The position numbers and the translations under genes were made by a program. Below the pieces are notes generated by a model, which was not told the origin of the DNA, did no database searches, and was given only the letters and a program-made list of their open reading frames with translations. This document shows positions 1 through 9,068 of a stretch of DNA of 9,068 nucleotides, piece after piece. Positions within the stretch are counted from its first letter, which is position 1. Every line of letters begins with the position of its first letter. The stretch spans positions 1-9,068 of the forward strand of contig CAMLKW010000185.1 in NCBI GenBank assembly GCA_946480605.1. Reading direction: 5' to 3'. The stretch is from an uncultured Roseateles sp. (GTDB lineage: Bacteria; Pseudomonadota; Gammaproteobacteria; Burkholderiales; Burkholderiaceae).

Positions 1-1686
1 ATGAGCTACCAGCTCGCCGACGGCTGGACCGACGTGAAGTTCGTGCGCCCGGCGCATGGCCTCGTCGCGCTTCATGGTGCGGACATCGTGCCCGTCCAGG
101 CCCTGGGCCTGACGGCCGGCCGAGCGACGCAAGGCCATCGTTTCGAGGCCGCGCAGGCCACGATCAGCGTCGACACCGCCGACAGCTATGCCACGCAGCT
201 GCGCGAGCAAGGCGCCGTCATCGCCAGCTTCGCCGAACGCCGCGCCGAGATCGCGCGCCAGCTGAAGGGCAATGCCGAGGCGCTGAGCCTGACACCGATC
301 GACGACGACGCACTGCTGGACGAAGTGACGGCCCTCGTCGAGCGCCCCAACGTGTTGACCTGCGCGTTCGAGGCCGAGTTCCTCGCGGTGCCGCAGGAGT
401 GCCTCATCCTGACGATGAAGGCCAACCAGAAGTACTTCCCGCTGCTGGATTCGAATGGCAAGCTGACGCGCCATTTCCTGGTCGTCAGCAACATCGCCCC
501 CGCCGACGCCAGCGCCGTCGTGCAAGGCAACGAGCGCGTCGTGCGCCCGCGCCTGGCGGACGCCAAGTTCTTCTTCGACCAGGACCGCAAGAAGAAGCTC
601 GAAGACCGCGTGCCGGGCCTGGCCAAGGTCGTCTACCACGGCAAGCTGGGCAGCCAGGGCGAGCGCGCCGAGCGCGTGCAGGCGATTGCGCATGCCATCG
701 TCAACCAGCTCAGCATGGCCACGCTGCCGTACACGGTCGAGGCCGACGACGAGTTCAAGGTGCTCGACAGCAAGGTCAAGCAGGCCGCGCTGCTGGCCAA
801 ATGCGACCTGCTGACCGACATGGTCGGCGAGTTCCCCGAGCTGCAGGGCATCATGGGCGGCTACTACGCCCGCCACGAGGGCCTGCGCGACGGCGTCGCC
901 ATCGCCATCGAGGACCACTACAAGCCCCGCTTCGCCGGCGACGCACTGCCGCGCAACCACACCGGCACCGTCGTGGCGCTGGCCGACAAGCTGGAGACGC
1001 TGGTGGGCCTGTTCGGCATCGGCCAGCTGCCGACCGGCGACAAGGACCCGTTCGCGCTGCGCCGCCACGCGCTGGGCGTCATCCGCATCCTCGTCGAGAA
1101 GAACCTGCCGCTGGAGCTGCCCGCGCTGATCGATGCCGCCGTGCCGGCCTTCGGCGAGCTGATCGCGAACCCGCGCGAGGCGTTGCTGAGCTTCTTTGCC
1201 GACCGCCTGGCCGTGAGCCTGCGCGACCAGGGCTACAGCGCCCAGGAAGTCGACGCCGTGCTGGCGCTCAACCCCACGCGCCTGGGCGATGTGCCCAAGC
1301 GCCTGCTGGCCGTGCGCGCTTTCGCGGCCTTGGCTGAGGCCGCCTCGCTGGCCGCCGCCAACAAGCGCGTCGGCAACATCCTGAAGAAGATCGACGGCGA
1401 ACTGCCCACCGAGGTGAAGTCCGATCTGCTGAGAGAACCCGCTGAGCAAGCCCTGGCACATCAACTTGCCTTCGTGGCGCCTGACGCTGACCGCTTGTTC
1501 GAGCAGCACGACTACACCGGCTCGCTGAAGACCCTGGCCGCGCTGAAAGGCCCGGTCGACGCGTTCTTCGACGATGTGATGGTCAACGCCGAAGACCCGG
1601 CCCTGCGCGCCAACCGCCTCGCGCTGCTGGGCCGTCTGCACGCCGCCATGAACCGCGTCGCCGACCTGTCGCGCCTGGCCAGCTGA
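1..1686 (+). CDS. glyS: Glycine--tRNA ligase beta subunit, 5'-truncated by the window edge
   Basis: This is the beta subunit of the bacterial alpha2beta2 glycyl-tRNA synthetase, which charges tRNA-Gly in the cytoplasm; the beta chain mainly handles tRNA recognition. The 561 visible residues begin inside the protein. The opening stretch with FVRPAHGLVALHG corresponds to roughly residue 140 of full-length GlyS, which is about 690-700 residues, so the ATG at position 1 is an internal Met and the true start lies upstream. The middle part (about residues 250-360) resembles the HD-like region, with KCDLLTDMVGEFPELQG followed by ALADKLETLVGLFGIGQLP and GDKDPFALRR. The C-terminal part (about 380-561) is the DALR-type anticodon-binding domain, with NRVGNILKK and a final helical segment RANRLALLGRLHAAMNRVAD. 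A gmhB-like gene follows after 11 bp. No frameshift or internal stop is seen. glyQ is expected just upstream of the window. Confidence 0.97.
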   Translation: MSYQLADGWTDVKFVRPAHGLVALHGADIVPVQALGLTAGRATQGHRFEAAQATISVDTADSYATQLREQGAVIASFAERRAEIARQLKGNAEALSLTPIDDDALLDEVTALVERPNVLTCAFEAEFLAVPQECLILTMKANQKYFPLLDSNGKLTRHFLVVSNIAPADASAVVQGNERVVRPRLADAKFFFDQDRKKKLEDRVPGLAKVVYHGKLGSQGERAERVQAIAHAIVNQLSMATLPYTVEADDEFKVLDSKVKQAALLAKCDLLTDMVGEFPELQGIMGGYYARHEGLRDGVAIAIEDHYKPRFAGDALPRNHTGTVVALADKLETLVGLFGIGQLPTGDKDPFALRRHALGVIRILVEKNLPLELPALIDAAVPAFGELIANPREALLSFFADRLAVSLRDQGYSAQEVDAVLALNPTRLGDVPKRLLAVRAFAALAEAASLAAANKRVGNILKKIDGELPTEVKSDLLREPAEQALAHQLAFVAPDADRLFEQHDYTGSLKTLAALKGPVDAFFDDVMVNAEDPALRANRLALLGRLHAAMNRVADLSRLAS

Positions 1687-1697
1687 GCACCTGACCG

Positions 1698-2342
1698 ATG
1701 CCGCGCAACGAGCCCGTGCACATGAAGCTGGTCATCCTCGGCCGGGATGGCACGCTCAACCGCTACCGCGACGACCACGTCAAGGCCCCCGAGGAGCTGG
1801 ACCCGCTGCCGGGCGCGATGGAGGCCGTCGCGCGGCTGAACCACGCCGGCTGGCATACGGTGCTGGCGACCAACCAGGCCGGCATCGGCCGCGGCCTGCT
1901 GGACATGGCGTCGCTGAACGCCGTGCACCTGCGGCTGAACCAGTTGCTGGCCGAGAAGGGCGGGCGGCTGGACGCCGCCTTCTTCTGCCCGCACACGCCG
2001 GAGGAAGGCTGCGACTGCCGCAAGCCGCTGCCCGGCCTCATCAAGCAGATCGGCGAGCGCTTCGATGTCGAGCTGCCCGAGGTCCACATGGTCGGCGCGT
2101 CGCTGACCGACCTGCTGACCGCCAAGGCCGCGGGCTGCATCCCCCACCTGGTGCTGACCGGCCCGCTGGGTTATCTCGAAGCCGGCCAACTGGCCGAGCT
2201 GCTGGTGGCCGTGCCGCATGCGCGCGTGCACGATGACCTGGCATCCTGTGCCGAAGCCATCGTCCAGGAGGAGCGTCGCCGTGTCGCCGAGCAGCGCGGC
2301 CAGACCCTGGCACCCGATACCCAGGCCGGAGACCTGTTCTGA
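1698..2342 (+). CDS. GmhB-like HAD-IIIA family protein with degenerate active site (probable pseudoenzyme)
   Basis: The fold is that of D-glycero-beta-D-manno-heptose-1,7-bisphosphate 7-phosphatase (GmhB), an enzyme of LPS heptose synthesis. Residues below count from ATG 1698. HAD motif I reads LVILGRDGTLN: the nucleophilic first Asp of DxD is Gly15 (codon ggc, 1740-1742), while the acid/base Asp17 remains. Motif II Thr58 (ATNQAGIGRG), the zinc-binding Cys97-x-His99 and Cys105-x-Cys107, and motif III Lys109 are intact. Motif IV, normally VGD, reads VGA (Ala134, 2097-2099), removing a magnesium ligand. Loss of two catalytic Asp residues with the fold and zinc site retained suggests no phosphatase activity, hence no gene symbol. 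The start is uncertain: ATG 1722 gives the family-typical N-terminus MKLVIL, ATG 1698 adds eight residues, and neither has a clear ribosome binding site. The gene lies 11 bp after glyS and overlaps the plsC start by 1 bp (TGATG), suggesting translational coupling. Confidence 0.9.
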   Translation: MPRNEPVHMKLVILGRDGTLNRYRDDHVKAPEELDPLPGAMEAVARLNHAGWHTVLATNQAGIGRGLLDMASLNAVHLRLNQLLAEKGGRLDAAFFCPHTPEEGCDCRKPLPGLIKQIGERFDVELPEVHMVGASLTDLLTAKAAGCIPHLVLTGPLGYLEAGQLAELLVAVPHARVHDDLASCAEAIVQEERRRVAEQRGQTLAPDTQAGDLF

Positions 2343-3136
2343 TGTCCACGTTGTTGAGCGCCATCCGCTCGCTGATCTTTGTCCTCGTCCTGATCGTGAC
2401 GGTGATCCCCTGGGCGATGGGCGTGCTGCTGCTGTCCATCTTCCGCCGCGGCGACCCGGTGTACTGGGCCTGCGCCGGCTGGCTCAAGGTCGCCATCTGG
2501 AGCGCGCGCTGGATCTGCGGCATCCGCTGGCGCATCACTGGGGCTGAGAACCTGCCGCCCGCCGAGGACCGCCGCGCCGGCGTCGTGCTGCTGTCCAAGC
2601 ACCAGAGTACCTGGGAGACCTTCGCCTACCCCGCGCTGCTGAGCCATCCGCTGGCCTACGTGTTCAAGCGCGAACTGCTGTACGTGCCCTTCTTCGGCTG
2701 GGCAATGGCGCGCATGGACATGATCCACATCGACCGCGGCCGCCGCACCGAGGCCTGGAACAAGGTGCTGAAGCAGGGCAAGCGCCTGGGCGCGCAGGGC
2801 AACTGGGTCATCATGTTCCCGGAAGGCACGCGCATCGCGCGCGGCGAGGTCGGCGACTACAAGACCGGCGGCACCCGCCTGGCCATCGAGGCCGGCCTGC
2901 CCGTCGTGCCCATCGCCGCGACGGCCGCACGCTGCTGGCCGCGCAAGAGCTTTCTGCTGAAACCGGGCGTCGTGGACATTTCCATCGGCAAGCAGATCCG
3001 CCCCGAAGGCCGCGAGCCGGGCGATCTGATGCGCGAAGTGAAGGACTGGATCGAGAGCGAGATGCGCCGCCTCGACCCGGAGGCCTACACCAACCCTTCG
3101 CCCGCCGGCGTCGCCGGCACCGCCAACCAGCACTGA
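2342..3136 (+). CDS. plsC: 1-acyl-sn-glycerol-3-phosphate acyltransferase family protein (PlsC-like)
   Basis: This 264-residue membrane-associated acyltransferase probably transfers an acyl chain to lysophosphatidic acid to form phosphatidic acid in phospholipid synthesis. An N-terminal hydrophobic segment (about residues 9-33, LIFVLVLIVTVIPWAMGVLL) would anchor it in the inner membrane. The catalytic block I reads KHQSTWETF with His87; the acidic residue of the HX4D motif is Glu92. Block II is FKRELLYVPFFGW and block III is FPEGTR (159-164). VPIA follows as the usual block IV. GGAG at 2328-2331 lies 10 bases before the ATG, and the start overlaps the stop of the preceding gene (TGATG). The next gene begins 5 bp after the stop. 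PlsC paralogues are common in this order and some acylate other lysophospholipids or lipids, so the exact substrate is inferred from family only. Confidence 0.93.
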   Translation: MSTLLSAIRSLIFVLVLIVTVIPWAMGVLLLSIFRRGDPVYWACAGWLKVAIWSARWICGIRWRITGAENLPPAEDRRAGVVLLSKHQSTWETFAYPALLSHPLAYVFKRELLYVPFFGWAMARMDMIHIDRGRRTEAWNKVLKQGKRLGAQGNWVIMFPEGTRIARGEVGDYKTGGTRLAIEAGLPVVPIAATAARCWPRKSFLLKPGVVDISIGKQIRPEGREPGDLMREVKDWIESEMRRLDPEAYTNPSPAGVAGTANQH

Positions 3137-3141
3137 AACCC

Positions 3142-3951
3142 ATGCCGCCCAAGCGCCCGGCACCGCTCCTGCACGACAGCCAGCTGTCGCTGTTCGACGT
3201 GGCGCCGGAGATCACGCCCGCCGAGCCCGGCGCACCGCGCTCGCGCCGCGAGCTGTGGCTGGGCCAGCACCGCGTGGGCTACGAACTGAAGCGCGCACGC
3301 CGCCGCTCCATCGGCTTCGTCGTCGGCCCGCAGGGCTTGCGCGTCAGCGCGCCACGCTGGGTGCCCATCGCCGAGATCGAGCGCGCGCTGCATCACAAGG
3401 GCGACTGGATATTGCGCAAGCTGGTCGAGCAGCGCGAGCGCCAGCAGCGCATCCAGGCCTCACGCATCGAGTGGCTGGACGGCGGTCGCGTGCCCTATCT
3501 GGGCGAGGCGTTGACGCTGGTGCTGGCGCCCGCCGAGCGCGAAGTCGTGTGGGACGGCGCCGCGCGCGAGCTGCGCCTGCCGCTGCCCGGTGGTGCGTCG
3601 GCCGAGCAGGTGCGCGACCTGGCGCAGTCCTGGCTGCAGGCGCGCGCGAAAGAGGACTTCCTGCCGCGCTGCCGGCATTTCGCCGACCAGCTCGGCGTGG
3701 CGATGAAGTCGCTGCGCCTGTCATCCGCCCAGACCCGCTGGGGCAGCGCCAGCGCGGACGGCTCCATCCGCCTGAACTGGCGGCTCATCCATTTCGCGCC
3801 GGCCATCATCGATTACGTCGTCGCCCATGAACTCGCCCACCTGCGCGAGATGAACCACAGCCCCGCGTTCTGGGACACCGTGCGCTCCGTGCTGCCCGAC
3901 TTCGAGCGCTCGCGCGACGCGCTGCGCGAAGAGTCCATCGTGGCGCAGTGA
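3142..3951 (+). CDS. YgjP/SprT-like zinc metalloprotease (M48-type) with N-terminal QLSLF motif
   Basis: This 269-residue protein belongs to the YgjP-like (DUF45) metallopeptidases. The zinc site is HELAH with His229, Glu230 and His233, and a third ligand at His239 (EMNHSPAFW). That spacing and the preceding RWGSASADGSIRLNW segment are hallmarks of the family. The region from about residue 30 to 130 forms the usual N-terminal part (RRSIGFVVGPQGLRVSAPRW). Before it is a Pro-rich, probably disordered tail of about 30 residues containing SQLSLFDV. QLSLF (residues 14-18) matches the bacterial beta-clamp-binding consensus QL[S/D]LF. YgjP substrates are poorly known; related zincin families (Spartan/SprT, Wss1) cut DNA-protein crosslinks, so a replication-linked role is an inference. 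The ATG lies 5 bp after the plsC stop with no clear ribosome binding site, so translation is probably coupled. It is the last gene before the terminator at 4086. Confidence 0.9.
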   Translation: MPPKRPAPLLHDSQLSLFDVAPEITPAEPGAPRSRRELWLGQHRVGYELKRARRRSIGFVVGPQGLRVSAPRWVPIAEIERALHHKGDWILRKLVEQRERQQRIQASRIEWLDGGRVPYLGEALTLVLAPAEREVVWDGAARELRLPLPGGASAEQVRDLAQSWLQARAKEDFLPRCRHFADQLGVAMKSLRLSSAQTRWGSASADGSIRLNWRLIHFAPAIIDYVVAHELAHLREMNHSPAFWDTVRSVLPDFERSRDALREESIVAQ

Positions 3952-4085
3952 GCCGCGTGTGAATATTCCCGCGCCCGCATGGCCGCGGCGCGCTCACGTT
4001 CAGCAACACTTCGGCCCAACGCTGTCATCACAGGTGCCCAGGCCGGTCCAGCCGGTGGGAGCAGAGGCACCGGGCTGAGCCGAAC
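3952..4085 (+). other. Gene-free 3' stretch between the metalloprotease gene and its terminator
   Basis: About 134 bp with no convincing reading frame. It contains GGTGCC (4033-4038), able to pair with GGCACC (4066-4071), and an inner CCGG/CCGG pair (4043-4046 with 4052-4055), so a branched or nested hairpin is possible. A shorter GC hairpin may form near 3970-3991. It matches no riboswitch or small RNA that I recognise. It is most simply a long 3' untranslated region. Confidence 0.4.
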
Positions 4086-4124
4086 CGCCGCCGCACGATC
4101 CCCATCGTCGGCGGCGTTTCTTTT
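4086..4124 (+). terminator. Rho-independent terminator closing the glyS-to-metalloprotease unit
   Basis: A GC-rich stem is formed by CGCCGCCG (4086-4093) plus ACGAT (4095-4099), pairing with ATCGT (4104-4108) plus CGGCGGCG (4109-4116). There is one bulged C (4094) and a CCCC loop (4100-4103). The 13-bp stem is followed directly by TTTCTTTT (4117-4124), so it acts on the + strand. There is no T tract on the other strand. Confidence 0.9.
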
Positions 4125-4147
4125 GGCACCAGGATGATGCGTGCCGG

Positions 4148-5110
4148 GTGCACAATCGTTCGGCAGTGCCTCAGCTCCCCCGATCCCGCGCCACGGCGTC
4201 GCCCCTCACCTCAGCAGGCCGCGTAACGCGCCGCCTCATCGTGCAGGCGCCGCTGCTGGCCGTGGCGGGTGCGCAGGCGGCGCCGCCGCTGAAGGTGGTC
4301 TACCCGGCCCCGGAGTCCCCGCAGGACCACCGCTCGCTGGACCTGGTCGCGCTGCTGCGGGCGGCGCTGCAACGCACCGAGGCCAGCCATGGCCCTTTCG
4401 AGCTGGCGCCGGCACAGACCGCCGCCAGCGAGGATCGCCAGTTGCTCAGCATGGAACAGGGCCGGCTGCCCAACGTGGTCTGGGCCTCCTCCACCCCGGA
4501 GCGCGAGCAGCGCCTGCGGGCCATACGCATCCCGCTGCGCAAGGGCCTGCTGGGTTTTCGCATCGCGCTGATCCACCGCGACCGCCAGGCCCAGTTCCGC
4601 CGCATCCGCACGGTGGCCGACCTGCGCGCCTACGCGCTGGGGCAGGGGCCCAACTGGCCCGAGGCGCAGATGTACCGGCGACTGGGCTTCCAGGTGCAGA
4701 CGGGCAACTACGAGGCCTTGTTCCGCATGCTGGTCAGCGGTCGCTTCGACCTCTTCCCGCGCGGCGTCAACGAGGTCTTCGGCGAACTCGCCGCCCGCCA
4801 GGCCGACCTGCCCGAGCTGGCCATCGAGGAATCGCTGCTGATCCACTATCCCCTGCCCTACTACTTCTTCGTCAGCCGCGACAACGCGGGCCTGGCGCGC
4901 CGCATCGAGCAAGGCCTGCGGGCCATGCTGCAGGACGGCAGCTTCGACGCCCATTTCTGGCACCACCACGGCGAGGCGCTGCGCCAGGCCCGCCTGGGCG
5001 AGCGGCGCGTGCTGCGGCTGGACAACCCGCTGCTGCCGCCCGACACGCCGCTGCGCGACGGCCGGCTCTGGTTCGACCCGAAGGCGGCTCAGCCCGCCCG
5101 GAAGCGGTAG
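4148..5110 (+). CDS. Orphan periplasmic solute-binding-like protein (PBP2 fold), start uncertain
   Basis: The product looks like a type II periplasmic binding protein of the amino-acid-binding (SBP_bac_3) sort. Numbering from GTG 4148, residues 28-46 (RRLIVQAPLLAVAGAQA) form a signal peptide with likely cleavage after AQA near residue 46. The mature part has the first lobe opening LKVVYPAPES, the hinge region IRTVADLRAYALGQGPNWPE, and the C-terminal YYFFVSRDNAGLARRIEQGL with DGSFDAHFWHHH. The TRR before the hydrophobic stretch is weakly Tat-like. GTG 4148, GTG 4166 and GTG 4241 are all possible starts and none has a good ribosome binding site. A -10-like CACAAT at 4151-4156 would exclude GTG 4148 if real. 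No permease or ATPase gene is adjacent, so the protein may serve sensing or a distant transporter. The gene follows a terminator, so it has its own promoter, and its last 22 bp overlap the opposite-strand hydrolase gene. Confidence 0.8.
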   Translation: MHNRSAVPQLPRSRATASPLTSAGRVTRRLIVQAPLLAVAGAQAAPPLKVVYPAPESPQDHRSLDLVALLRAALQRTEASHGPFELAPAQTAASEDRQLLSMEQGRLPNVVWASSTPEREQRLRAIRIPLRKGLLGFRIALIHRDRQAQFRRIRTVADLRAYALGQGPNWPEAQMYRRLGFQVQTGNYEALFRMLVSGRFDLFPRGVNEVFGELAARQADLPELAIEESLLIHYPLPYYFFVSRDNAGLARRIEQGLRAMLQDGSFDAHFWHHHGEALRQARLGERRVLRLDNPLLPPDTPLRDGRLWFDPKAAQPARKR

Positions 5111-6147
5111 ACGCCGTCGGCGCCCAGCTCGCGCTGCAGTTCGCCCTTCAGCCACAGCGCGTGCAGGTGGGCGATGGCCTCGCCCATCGCGAACGTGGTC
5201 TGGTGCAGGTCCAGCTTGCGCTTGAACAGCACCGTCAGCAATCCGGCCGCATGGGTGGGTTCCGCGCGGCAGGCCGCCATCACCTCGGCCAGGCGCTCGT
5301 CGTGGTGCTCGCGCAATTGGGCTATGCGCTGATGCAGGCCCGTGAACGGCTTGCCATGCGAGGGCAACACCAGCGCATCGGCCGGCAGCTCCAGGTAGCG
5401 CCGCAGTGACTGCAGGTACAGCGTCAGCGGATCGGCCTCGGGCTCCACGTCGACGACCGACACGTTGGTGGAGATGCGCGGCAGCACCATGTCGCCGGAG
5501 ATCAACAGCTTCGCCTCCTCGCAGAACAGGCTGATGTGCTCGGGCGCATGGCCATAGCCGGCGATGCAGCGCCAGGTGCGGCCGCCGATCTGCACCTCGG
5601 TGCCATCCATCAGCCGGCGGTAGCTGGCCGGCACGGCCGGCACCATCTTCGGGTAGTAGTCGGCACGGGCGCGGATCTTGTCCAGCGAGTCCGGGTCGCT
5701 CAGCCCGTGGCTGCCGAAGAAGGCCGCGGCCGACGCGCCGCCCATGCCCACCGTGGAGCCGCTGGCCAGCCGCGCCAGGTTGAAGTCGGTCGCGCTCATC
5801 CACAGGCGACAGTTCCACTTCTCGGTCAGCCAGTGCGCCAGGCCCAGGTGGTCGGGGTGGAAATGCGTGGCCATGACGCGCAGCACCGGCAGACCGTCCA
5901 GTCGCTCGGCAAAAACCGTCTCCCAGTTCGCCCGCGTGTCGTCGCTGGTGATGCCGCAATCCACGATGGTCCAGCCCTCGCGGCCGTCGATGCGGTCGCG
6001 AAGCAGCCACAGGTTGATGTGGTCCAGCGCAAACGGCAGGCCCATGCGCACCCAGCGCAGGCCGGGCGCGAGGTCCAGCGCCTCGCCGGGCTGGGGCAGG
6101 GTTTCGCCCAGGGGGTAGTGGAGTTCGGATTCGCGTGGATTGCCCAT
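5089..6147 (-). CDS. Metallo-beta-lactamase-fold hydrolase with C-terminal winged-helix-like region
   Basis: This 352-residue cytoplasmic hydrolase has the full MBL metal site: THFHPDH (His95, His97, Asp99, His100), GYGHAPEH (His200), SGDM (Asp219) and PSHGKPF (His264). These provide the ligands for two metal ions, as in glyoxalase II and RNase Z-type proteins. Residues from about 275 to 352 form a helical tail (LHQTTFAMGEAIAHLHALWL, then VYRFRAG) like the winged-helix domain of LACTB2-type proteins. The segment 130-175 is an insertion between metal motifs and may shape the substrate pocket. There is no signal peptide. The substrate is unknown; a thioester or small ester is plausible because its divergent neighbour is a LiuR-like regulator of acyl-CoA metabolism. 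A palindromic operator lies only 13 bp before its ATG, so repression by that regulator is likely. No strong ribosome binding site is seen. Its 3' end overlaps the solute-binding gene by 22 bp. Confidence 0.92.
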   Translation of the reverse strand: MGNPRESELHYPLGETLPQPGEALDLAPGLRWVRMGLPFALDHINLWLLRDRIDGREGWTIVDCGITSDDTRANWETVFAERLDGLPVLRVMATHFHPDHLGLAHWLTEKWNCRLWMSATDFNLARLASGSTVGMGGASAAAFFGSHGLSDPDSLDKIRARADYYPKMVPAVPASYRRLMDGTEVQIGGRTWRCIAGYGHAPEHISLFCEEAKLLISGDMVLPRISTNVSVVDVEPEADPLTLYLQSLRRYLELPADALVLPSHGKPFTGLHQRIAQLREHHDERLAEVMAACRAEPTHAAGLLTVLFKRKLDLHQTTFAMGEAIAHLHALWLKGELQRELGADGVYRFRAG

Positions 6148-6174: not shown

Positions 6175-6187
6175 ATTGAGTGTAGCC

Positions 6188-6601
6188 ATGCCCCCCCGCC
6201 GATCTGTCACCGCCGCGACCGAAGCGCCGCAGCCGACCTTCACGATCACGGAACTCGCCGCCGAGTTCGACATCACGCCCCGCGCCATCCGCTTCTACGA
6301 GGAGGCTGGCCTGCTGGAGCCCGGCCGAAAGGGTCGCAACCGCGTCTACACGCCGCGCGACCGCACGCGGCTGAAGCTGACGCTGCGCGGCAAGCGCCTG
6401 GGCCTGGCGCTGCAGGAGATCAAGCAACTGGTGGACATGTACGACAGCCAGGCCAGCGCCGCGCCGCAGCTGCGCGCCTTCCTGGGCATGCTGGCCCAGC
6501 ACCGCGAGCAGCTGGAGCAGCAGCGCGACGACATCGAGGTCACGCTGGCCGAGATCCAGCAGCACGAGAAGCGCTGCCGCGCACTGCTGGCCAAGGCCTG
6601 A
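6188..6601 (+). CDS. MerR family transcriptional regulator, LiuR-like
   Basis: This 137-residue DNA-binding regulator opens with a short flexible tail, then the MerR winged helix-turn-helix from about residue 18 (FTITELAAEFDITPRAIRFY, EEAGLLEPGRKGRNRVY). PRDRTRLKLTLRGKRLGLAL follows, ending in a dimerising coiled coil (HREQLEQQRDDIEVTLAEI). The RLKLTLRGKRLG segment is characteristic of LiuR-type regulators of branched-chain amino acid and fatty acid breakdown. There is no metal-sensing Cys cluster, only one Cys near the C-terminus, so metal or thiol sensing is unlikely and an acyl-CoA ligand is inferred. I chose ATG 6188 over TTG 6176 because the TTG sits beside the operator and adds nothing conserved. 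No Shine-Dalgarno is visible, so the transcript may be nearly leaderless. The gene is divergent from the MBL hydrolase and probably regulates it and itself through the palindrome at 6161-6174. No liu catabolic gene is in the window. Confidence 0.92.
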   Translation: MPPRRSVTAATEAPQPTFTITELAAEFDITPRAIRFYEEAGLLEPGRKGRNRVYTPRDRTRLKLTLRGKRLGLALQEIKQLVDMYDSQASAAPQLRAFLGMLAQHREQLEQQRDDIEVTLAEIQQHEKRCRALLAKA

Positions 6602-6727: not shown

Positions 6728-7486
6728 GTGAACACACCCGGAGTACGCCCGCCGCAGGCGCTGACCCTGACCGCCCTGGCGGTCGCACTGACGGCCCTGC
6801 TGACGCCCCCCCTCGCCAGCGCCCAGACCGATGCCGCCAAGCCCAACGCCGGCCTGGAGCGGGCGCAGAAGGCTGCCGACGCCGTCTTCCACTGGATCAA
6901 GCTGAACGGCGAGAAGGGCGCCAACCGCCAGAACCCGCCGCCCGCACCGCCGCCGCCCCCCGCGCCCGCGCCGGCCGCGCGCAAGGCGGTGGCCGCAGCA
7001 CCCCGCCCCGCGCCCACGCCTGCCCCGCAGCCAGCACCGGCCGCGATCGCCGCAGTCGCGGCGCCGGTGCCCGCGCCGCCGCCCGAGCCGGTGGTCGCCG
7101 TCAACGCCGAGCCCGAACCCGCGCCGGTGCTGCTGGCCGCTGCCGCGCCCTCGCCCACGCCGACCGCTCCCTTGGCCGCCGCGGCGCGTGCCGTGGAGCC
7201 GCCGCCCCCGCCACCCGAGCCGGCCGAAGTACCGCTGAAGCTGCTGGTCAAGGTGGAGCCGACCATCCCGCGCCAGCTGGCGCAGCAGAACTTCCGCAAT
7301 GGGTTTGCCCAGGTGCAGTTCACCGTCGCGCCCGATGGCTCGGTGAGCCGCGCCAGCGTCATCAAGGCCAGCCACACCCGCCTGGGCATTGCCGCAGTCG
7401 ATGCGGTCAAGCAATGGCGCTTCGCGCCGCTGCCGCTGGCGCGCGACGCTGCGGTCGAGGTGGCATTCAGCAACGTGGACGAATGA
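6728..7486 (+). CDS. Secreted TonB C-terminal-domain protein with Pro/Ala-rich linker
   Basis: The 252-residue product has four parts. Residues 1-32 are a signal peptide with a hydrophobic core (ALTLTALAVALTALL) and a clear signal peptidase I site, ASA before Gln33. Residues 33-69 form a short charged segment containing RAQKAADAVFHWIKLNGEK, probably an amphipathic helix. Residues 70-168 are a Pro/Ala-rich linker of periplasm-spanning type. Residues 169-252 are a TonB C-terminal domain, with PTIPRQLAQQNFRNGFAQVQ, then PDGSVSRASVIKAS and VDAVKQWRFAPL. Canonical TonB keeps its N-terminal helix as a membrane anchor contacting ExbB/ExbD; here the helix looks cleavable and no exbBD gene is near, so ordinary energy transduction is doubtful. 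It may act as a free periplasmic scaffold or envelope-binding protein. If the signal is not cleaved, an atypical TonB remains possible. Start is GTG with a good ribosome binding site. Its stop lies 4 bp from the 3' end of the lysR gene on the other strand. Confidence 0.88.
   Translation: MNTPGVRPPQALTLTALAVALTALLTPPLASAQTDAAKPNAGLERAQKAADAVFHWIKLNGEKGANRQNPPPAPPPPPAPAPAARKAVAAAPRPAPTPAPQPAPAAIAAVAAPVPAPPPEPVVAVNAEPEPAPVLLAAAAPSPTPTAPLAAAARAVEPPPPPPEPAEVPLKLLVKVEPTIPRQLAQQNFRNGFAQVQFTVAPDGSVSRASVIKASHTRLGIAAVDAVKQWRFAPLPLARDAAVEVAFSNVDE
6935..7231 (+). repeat. Low-complexity Pro/Ala-coding tract
   Basis: Codons 70-168 of the TonB-domain gene encode runs of Pro and Ala with a few Glu, Arg and Val. 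The DNA is almost all CCG/GCC/CCC-type codons and includes imperfect short tandem copies. Such tracts vary in length between strains by slippage and are prone to sequencing error. Confidence 0.7.
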
Positions 7487-7490
7487 GGCG

Positions 7491-8405
7491 CTAAGCCGGC
7501 GGCGCCGGGCAGGTCTCCAGCAGCGCGGACATCGCCTCCAGGAACACCCGCGTGCGCAGCGGCATCAGCCGCCGCTCCGGGAACACCGCCCAGCAGACCG
7601 AGCCGGGCAGCTCCCAGTCCGGCAGCAGCCGCTGCAGACGCCCCAGCTCCAGCGAATGGCGCACCAGCAGGCGGTCCACGCCGGCAATGCCCACACCGTT
7701 CAGCGCCATCTGCGCCAGCAGGCTGGGCGAGTTGGCCACCGTGCGCTGCGCGGGCTGCGCCAGGTAGGGCTCGGCGCCATCGCGCTGCAGCCGCCAGGGC
7801 ACGGGCTCGCCGGTACGCGTCAGCAGCAACAACCCGTGCATGGCGTCCAGCGCCTGCGGCAGCAGCGGCTCGCCCACGCGCGCCAGGTAGTCGGGCGACG
7901 CGTACAGGCCCCAGTGCGTCGTCGCCAGCCGGCGCGCGGCCAGCTGGCTGTCTTCGTCCAGCGCACCCATGCGGATGGCCAGGTCGAAGCCTTCGCCGAT
8001 GAGATCCACGCGGCGCGGCGTCAGGTCCAGCTCCAGTTGCACCTCGGGGTAGTCCAGCGCGAACTGCGCCAGCATGCCGGCCGCCACCCGCTCGGCGAAG
8101 TCCGACGGCATGCTGACGCGCAGCCGCCCGCTGGGCTTGCGCTGCCGGTGCAGCGCCAGCGCCAAGGCGCCATCCACCTCAGCCGCGACGACGCGCGCAT
8201 GCTCCAGCACGCCGGCGCCGAAATCCGTCAGCGCCAGCTTGCGGGTGGAGCGCAGCAGCAGCTTCTCGCCCAGCCGCGTCTCCAGCGCCGCGATGCGCCG
8301 CGACACCGTGCTCTTGGGCCAGTGCACCCGTTCGGCGGCGCGGCTGAAGCTGCCGGCTTCCATGACACGGGCAAACAGCAGCAAATCGTCGGCATCTGAT
8401 TCCAT
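7491..8405 (-). CDS. LysR family transcriptional regulator, probable regulator of azoR
   Basis: The 304-residue product is a full-length LysR-type regulator. Residues 1-62 form the winged helix-turn-helix (DDLLLFARVMEAGSFSRAAE, then WPKSTVSRRIAALETRLGEK and LLLRSTRKLALTDFG). A linker helix runs to about residue 88, and the effector-binding domain with the periplasmic-binding-protein fold starts near RPSGRLRV-type sequence (KPSGRLRVSMPSDFAERVA) and continues to residue 295. The sequence style is that of the DmlR/AaeR-like subgroup, which often sits next to an oxidoreductase gene it controls. Here it is divergent from azoR with a 115-bp gap containing a perfect inverted repeat 8 bp before its own ATG, so autoregulation and control of azoR are likely. 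The inducer is unknown, perhaps a quinone or aromatic compound by analogy. No frameshift is seen. Confidence 0.95.
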   Translation of the reverse strand: MESDADDLLLFARVMEAGSFSRAAERVHWPKSTVSRRIAALETRLGEKLLLRSTRKLALTDFGAGVLEHARVVAAEVDGALALALHRQRKPSGRLRVSMPSDFAERVAAGMLAQFALDYPEVQLELDLTPRRVDLIGEGFDLAIRMGALDEDSQLAARRLATTHWGLYASPDYLARVGEPLLPQALDAMHGLLLLTRTGEPVPWRLQRDGAEPYLAQPAQRTVANSPSLLAQMALNGVGIAGVDRLLVRHSLELGRLQRLLPDWELPGSVCWAVFPERRLMPLRTRVFLEAMSALLETCPAPPA

Positions 8406-8520: not shown

Positions 8521-9068
8521 ATGAACATCCTGCAGATCAACGCCAGCGCCCGCCGTGCCACCGATGCCGAAGGCTCTGTCTCCACCCGCCTGGCCAGCGA
8601 ACTGACCGCCGGCCTGCGCAACGCCAACGCCGGTGCAAGCGTCACCGTGCGCGACCTGACGCTGACACCCCAGCCCGTGCTGGACGAGACCGCCCTGGGC
8701 GCCCTGTTCACGCCGGCCGAGCAGCGCACGCCCGAGCAGGCCGCCCGCGTCGCGCTGGACGATGCGCTGATCGCCGAGCTGCAGGCCGCAGACGCCATCG
8801 TCATCGGCGTGCCGATGTACAACTTCAACGTGACGGCCCAGTTCAAGAACTGGATCGATGCGGTGGCCCGCGCCGGCGTCACCTTCAAGTACACCGAGAA
8901 GGGTCCCGTGGGCCTGGTGACCGGCAAGAAGGTCTACATCGTCACCAGCCGCGGCGGCATCCACCGCGACCAGCCCAGCGACCAGATGACGCCCTATCTG
9001 CGCACCGTGCTGGCCTTCCTGGGCATGACGGACGTCGAGTTCGTCTACGCTGAGGGCATGGCCTTCGC
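8521..9068 (+). CDS. azoR: FMN-dependent NADH-azoreductase, 3'-truncated by the window edge
   Basis: AzoR is a cytoplasmic flavodoxin-fold enzyme that reduces quinones and azo compounds with NAD(P)H, usually as a homodimer; its likely natural role is protection against thiol-reactive quinones. The visible 182 residues start [11 protein letters not shown], the first beta strand and FMN phosphate loop, though the loop reads [17 protein letters not shown] rather than the more common SSPR form. The FMN-binding PMYNF (98-102) with [17 protein letters not shown] and the SRGG loop (143-146) are typical. About 20 residues are missing at the 3' end, judged from the family length of about 200. ATG 8521 is preceded by GGAG at 8511-8514 with a six-base spacer, a good start. 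It is divergent from a LysR-type regulator with an inverted repeat between them, so induction through that regulator is expected. Confidence 0.95.

Follow-up and report, generated by a model that had tools for sequence, protein, structure and literature searches.

Why a bacterial zinc protease should carry, close to its N-terminus, a peptide that reads like a binding motif for the replication sliding clamp is the question raised by this locus. The window, a 9,068-nucleotide stretch of Roseateles DNA, contains an open reading frame at 3142..3951 on the forward strand (ATG start, TGA stop; 269 amino acids plus stop) in which a sequence-only reading had picked out QLSLF at residues 14-18 (3181..3195, +) and an HExxH zinc site, HELAH, at residues 229-233 (3826..3840, +). 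Both are read directly in the sequence. The product belongs to the YgjP-like family PF01863, the sole Pfam family matched at E <= 0.001 (E 4.4e-56 over residues 56-263), at 190.6 bits against a curated cut-off of 26. Of the initial label of a SprT/YgjP-like protease, the YgjP-like half is thereby borne out; SprT was a loose term, as no SprT-like Pfam profile matched at E <= 0.001. Close relatives are labelled 'SprT family zinc-dependent metalloprotease' by NCBI, and searches of the protein against NCBIfam and of PADLOC both returned zero matches. The closest protein match is from Roseateles asaccharophilus (95% identity, full length) and the closest genome locus is that of Roseateles caseinilyticus (92% identity).

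The gene lies behind a plsC-like acyltransferase gene (2342..3136, +; PF01553, E 6.3e-24), which ends 5 nt before it, and a gmhB-like phosphatase gene (1698..2342, +; NF006506, E 3.5e-56, above its cut-off). Because gmhB and plsC share a base and only the 5-nt gap precedes the protease gene, the three probably form one operon. Further upstream is glyS, cut by the window edge, giving the order glyS-gmhB-plsC-protease. The arrangement recurs in 72 of 80 related loci, where gmhB and plsC both precede the protease gene in the same orientation; six others have gmhB without a recognised plsC, and the remaining two have no upstream DNA. No repair genes were seen near the protease, either among its neighbours in the window or in the 80 related loci. 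A promoter scan of 1600-4250 found no promoter-like site, and its one terminator-like site, within plsC, is at chance level. Downstream, a 320-residue reading frame (4148-5110, +) resembles a periplasmic binding protein by eye and matches nothing in Pfam at E <= 0.01, and the one at 6728-7486 (+) combines a TonB C-terminal domain (E 2.4e-09) with a long Ala/Pro-rich spacer. The rest are ordinary genes, for a metallo-beta-lactamase-fold protein (5089-6147, -), a MerR regulator (6176-6601, +), a LysR regulator (7491-8405, -) and a flavodoxin-fold reductase (8521-9066, +).

We modelled the protein with AlphaFold2 and counted conservation using 45 aligned sequences, namely the window protein and 44 of the 120 proteins listed as its best matches. 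The model has pLDDT of at least 90 for 189 of 269 residues and below 50 for residues 1-32 (3142..3237, +), a predicted disordered tail that comprises the motif and the start of a linker. Burial of QLSLF, which would have counted against the proposal, is thus not predicted. Behind the tail, residues 34-158 (3241..3615, +) form an N-terminal folded domain, with a mean pLDDT of 91.2 when modelled alone; searched on its own against the PDB, this domain gave no match at E <= 0.001, which does not prove a new fold. It contains a basic, largely conserved strand, KRARRRSIGF.

The peptidase domain follows at approximately residues 162-269 (3625..3948, +). Its fold match is to the minigluzincins, compact zincins like proabylysin and selecase, and two zymogen structures, 4jiu and 4jix (by title), are among its nearest solved relatives. 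Spartan and Wss1 match this catalytic domain more weakly, without surpassing the M48 protease BepA of E. coli, which scores 8.1-8.3, level with Spartan. H229, E230, H233 and H239 are invariant across the 45 aligned homologues, the last of them (3856-3858, +) being the likely third zinc ligand. With its zinc site intact, the protein is likely to be proteolytically active.

We asked how often the motif recurs in orthologues and how often chance would supply it. A profile search for PF01863 in a family sample, 70 genomes from the GTDB family of the related locus L001, matched all 70, of which 67 had a scoreable orthologue, one that reached 225 bits with our own profile and was preceded by an open frame of 20 or more amino acids; the other three were left out of the counts. 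QL[SD]LF occurs in 19 of the 67 tails, against a mean of 0.004 and a maximum of 1 in 500 shuffles of the same tails, so that the pattern named in the earlier reading is commoner than chance would make it. The published consensus for the beta-clamp is reported as Q-phi-x-[L/M]-[F/L] or Q-phi-x-[L/M]-x-[F/L], where phi is Leu, Ile, Val or Ala (PMC13254535). In the form Q[LIVA]x[LM](x)[FL] it is present in 37/67 tails (1000 shuffles: mean 2.25, maximum 7), versus 9/67 for the longer folded domains (~221 aa) of the same proteins. It is also found in 56 of 78 named loci (shuffles: mean 2.38, maximum 8; L014 and L046, without upstream DNA, were dropped from the 80) and in 116 of the 120 best protein matches listed, both sets being biased to close relatives. 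The widest motif pattern matched 60/67 tails over a shuffle background of 16.2/67 and was set aside as evidence.

Sorted by patterns made after inspection of the data, 58 of the 67 orthologues keep some form of the motif. Pentapeptides account for 24 tails (QLSLF, QLALF, QMTLF, QLELF, QLGLF and QLSLW among them) and hexapeptides, mostly followed by Phe, for 30 (QLTLDL, QFTLDL, QLALDF, QLDLPL, QFVLPL and others), of which five are doubtful in that Ser, Gln or Arg replaces the hydrophobic second residue; four tails have lost the Gln and retain LDLF. By the same post-hoc patterns nine orthologues are without a clear form, some of them with little or no tail. Burkholderia loci of the named set read Q[LM]DLPLF, Massilia loci QLELF in 12 of 13 and QPDLF in the remaining one, one Limnohabitans and five further relatives QLVLDF, two Alcaligenaceae QLPLF and an Aquabacterium QLQLW. 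Such exchanges are of the kind that the clamp consensus permits. As a control from the same organisms we examined Hda, an AAA+ replication regulator and known clamp ligand that is not a protease; in the six of eight genomes whose Hda our search pattern recovered, the N-termini read QLTLDL, QLILDI (twice), QLVLDV, QLLLDF and QIPLAL.

Position and codon changes set the motif apart from what follows it. In the 58 orthologues whose form was recognised, the motif starts 2-20 residues (median 7) past the nearest upstream start codon, taken as ATG (or GTG/TTG), a choice that makes these distances lower bounds, and the linker behind it spans 19-91 residues (median 51). In the wider family the linker is 19.5% Ala and 19.4% Pro; the N-terminal tail had been described as Pro-rich and disordered, and the predicted disorder holds while the Pro-rich character belongs mainly to the linker after the motif. 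For codon comparison we used 11 close orthologues (the window protein, L001-L009 and L279), picked by an RPAPLL stretch and hence independently of the motif. All 37 pairwise differences in their motif codons are synonymous (0 nonsynonymous), in keeping with the expectation that close homologues would conserve the motif, and pN/pS is 0.446 in the linker, 0.196 in the folded part and 0.201 in residues 1-13. Since residues 5-12 are also conserved within the genus, constraint extends beyond the pentapeptide, and the proposal that the motif is kept while the flanking tail varies applies to the linker but not to the residues just upstream. In a separate comparison of five groups pN/pS was 0-0.16 for the motif, 0.42-0.70 for the linker and 0.11-0.51 for the folded part; as only motif-bearing sequences were used, these values speak for synonymous drift within retained motifs and say nothing of the frequency of retention. 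Judged from the shuffles and from the codons of the 11 orthologues, the motif is selectively retained while the linker turns over. At the sequence level the segment thus has what a beta-clamp ligand would be expected to have, a consensus motif in a predicted disordered segment that is selectively, though not universally, kept. No hook was found at the other end of the protein, where 73 C-terminal extensions, each 10 or more amino acids long, were searched with Q[LM].[LM][FL] and Q[LM].L.[LF].

The protein family is far more widespread than the hook. PF01863 was found in 110 of 120 genomes sampled across the order and in 10 of 14 control genomes, and the published consensus occurs in 12 of 68 scoreable order-sample orthologues (shuffles: mean 0.87, maximum 5). 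To place motif forms, and for that use only, we built a FastTree tree of 338 rows, 137 of them positive by a loose pattern, with at least 36 changes. QLDLF, QFDLF, QLELF, QLTLF, QLELPLF, QLELPF and QFLLPF recur in order-sample loci that lie apart from most family-sample rows. Six order-sample orthologues (L189, L196, L220, L221, L224 and L226) have in common a short N-terminal stretch, DLFPV or DLFPA, that lacks the Gln, and adjoin L195 and L223, bearers of QLDLF and QFDLF, in the tree order; this stretch is perhaps a reduced clamp motif.

Beyond the order we examined two sets, neither of them random: 58 best-scoring class and phylum loci, and 40 further phylum loci mostly chosen for long reading frames. 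An N-terminal consensus match occurs in one of the 58 (QIRMNL in L102, probably by chance) and in none of the 40. One of the 40 (L360) has a C-terminal QAIMF, which we take as chance because four similar loci read QAIVF. These counts (1/58 and 0/40) rule out the hook as a trait of all PF01863 proteins; by its sequence distribution it is chiefly a feature of the GTDB family that includes Roseateles, with a scattering of forms in the rest of the order, rather than of PF01863 at large. Because some members of the family lack the hook, the protease can evidently work without it.

Two other kinds of relative are of interest here. The genomes of L016, L001 and L044 each contain one more PF01863 match, of lower score (38.8-46.6 bits; L086, L087 and L088, respectively), whose products are of another type that opens with a [YL]xxYPxxL-like stretch. 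This type resembles E. coli YgjP itself, and the window protein is for that reason probably not the orthologue of E. coli YgjP. The 58 class and phylum loci (L089-L147 minus L144), in turn, share the family and the zinc protease body with the window protein but, unlike it, are all but tailless and lack the clamp motif (a match in 1/58 loci). Of 149 reading frames flanking them, 81, from 56 of the 58 loci, were scanned. Frames that resemble type I restriction R-subunits are frequent there, 21/81 frames matching T1R_D3-like and 9/81 T1RH-like_C, and Hsp33 (14/81) marks a different setting. A predicted M48 metallopeptidase is reported within an hsdMSR-darTG type I restriction island (PMC12255303). 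The restriction-gene neighbours hint, suggestively only, that the wider PF01863 family handles DNA-bound protein.

The best explanation of these data, drawn from sequence comparison, is that of a clamp-tethered protease, attached to the sliding clamp of replication, a reading to which we assign a probability of about three in four. It draws on the excess of the motif over shuffled tails and over the folded domains, on motif codons that leave the amino acids unchanged beside a faster-changing linker, on the presence of the same kind of hexapeptide at the Hda N-termini recovered from 6 of 8 genomes of the same order, and on forms that fit the published consensus (PMC13254535) within a segment predicted to be disordered. 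We also count in its favour that QLSLF, as the motif of PolC, has a reported affinity for Bacillus subtilis DnaN (Kd 3.8 uM) that is exceeded by its affinity for E. coli DnaN (PMC12309361). Against it stand the nine of 67 orthologues without a clear form, the five irregular hexapeptides among 30 and the four tails without Gln, the low count in the order sample (12/68), the conservation of residues 5-12 beyond the pentapeptide, the absence of repair genes nearby, and the report that SPRTN itself can be recruited to the fork without its PIP box (PMC7782752). A chance match, which might be suspected of a single pentapeptide in a single protein and more so given that the widest pattern matches 16.2/67 shuffled tails on average, has next to no probability: the strict form (19/67 versus 0.004), the consensus (37/67 versus 2.25) and the zero nonsynonymous changes in the motif codons rule it out.

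Many members have hydrophobic residues before the motif (for example MRRLLQLTLDLF and MLKRLANLLQDNKQLSLF), as would suit an amphipathic anchor, or a site at which something else docks, a membrane or an adaptor for instance, but many others are without the hydrophobic stretch (for example MQPAATVTAQLSLF and MARATEPTQLSLF) and the kept Gln and Leu-Phe fit the clamp consensus specifically, making this improbable. That the motif is an autoinhibitory plug, a zymogen segment in the protease's own cleft, is a thought encouraged by the zymogen structures 4jiu and 4jix; we give it very little weight, as the model (pLDDT < 50 for residues 1-32) does not show the motif docked against the folded part, the linker runs to 19-91 residues and the motif follows the clamp consensus. 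A different kind of alternative accepts the tether, and shares all of its motif evidence, but gives the protease another task, the turnover of clamp partners (Hda or translesion polymerases, for example) or of the clamp itself rather than the removal of stuck or crosslinked proteins. The housekeeping-type operon, with no sign of repair neighbours, would suit such a task; the resemblance of the fold to a class that includes crosslink proteases, and the hypothetical nature of the substrates required, make it rather unlikely.

Returning to the clamp-tethered protease, we infer from the sequence evidence that the peptide near its N-terminal tip binds DnaN, which we consider highly probable, and that the hydrophobic pocket of the clamp would be the place of docking. 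The disordered Ala/Pro-rich linker would then give the folded body and the protease domain reach around the clamp, and the tether would hold the protease at forks or at clamps left on newly copied DNA. There it would most plausibly cleave other clamp-bound proteins or, in the manner of Spartan, proteins that have not come off the DNA. As for substrates, action on DNA-bound or crosslinked protein, and with it a part in crosslink repair, is a tentative suggestion. Equally tentative is the broader proposal that a DNA-protein-crosslink protease coupled to replication arose separately in the Burkholderiales, chiefly in the GTDB family that includes Roseateles, as a clamp-hooked YgjP-like minigluzincin that is convergent with PCNA-tethered Spartan but made from a different peptidase family.

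By title and abstract we found no report of a bacterial zinc protease, YgjP-like or other, with a clamp-binding motif, in a search that left subscription journals mostly outside, and no paper centred on YgjP, a little-studied protease, among the literature that mentions it. As far as these searches show, a clamp-hooked YgjP-like protease is previously undescribed. The beta-clamp interactome has been called incompletely defined (PMC13254535), and the window protease is an added candidate for it. For one branch of PF01863, the conserved hook is a concrete lead to a workplace, the replication clamp, and whether some bacteria, like animals, have a replication-coupled protease becomes a directly testable question.

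Compared with known systems, the window protein is a PF01863 member that fits the minigluzincin fold. The minigluzincins proabylysin, jannalysin and selecase, and also Wss1, Spartan and GCNA, differ from it in that it adds an N-terminal domain and a clamp hook. The eukaryotic FAM111A is a serine protease of a fold class unrelated to the zinc protease here. It resembles the window protein in another respect, as a PCNA-binding protease that has a clamp motif and is reported to protect forks (PMC7782752). Hda and other short-motif beta-clamp ligands have an N-terminal QLxLDL-type motif, as do relatives of the window protein. The RipA toxin is reported to act on DnaN, with the metalloprotease likeness residing in its antitoxin (PMC12795458).

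The animal crosslink protease SPRTN (Spartan/DVC1) sits in another Pfam family and has a ubiquitin-binding domain, of which the window protein, with PF01863 as its sole Pfam match, shows no sign. Its PIP box is placed in the C-terminal part (PMC7782752), whereas the hook of the window protein precedes the protease (residues 14-18 versus ~162-269). The reversed placement of the hook and the lack of a SprT-like Pfam match leave membership of the SprT-like family unsupported. Since the SPRTN PIP box is reported to be dispensable, while rescue of Topo-1cc phenotypes by FAM111A is reported to require its PIP box as well as its protease domain (PMC7782752), a conserved clamp motif may not explain all targeting. 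Although the peptidase fold is minigluzincin-like, the parallel with Spartan drawn in the sequence-only reading is reduced to analogy by Spartan and Wss1 scores no better than that of BepA, the N-terminal hook and the glyS-gmhB-plsC context; by that analogy, the window protein may act like a Spartan-type clamp-tethered protease.
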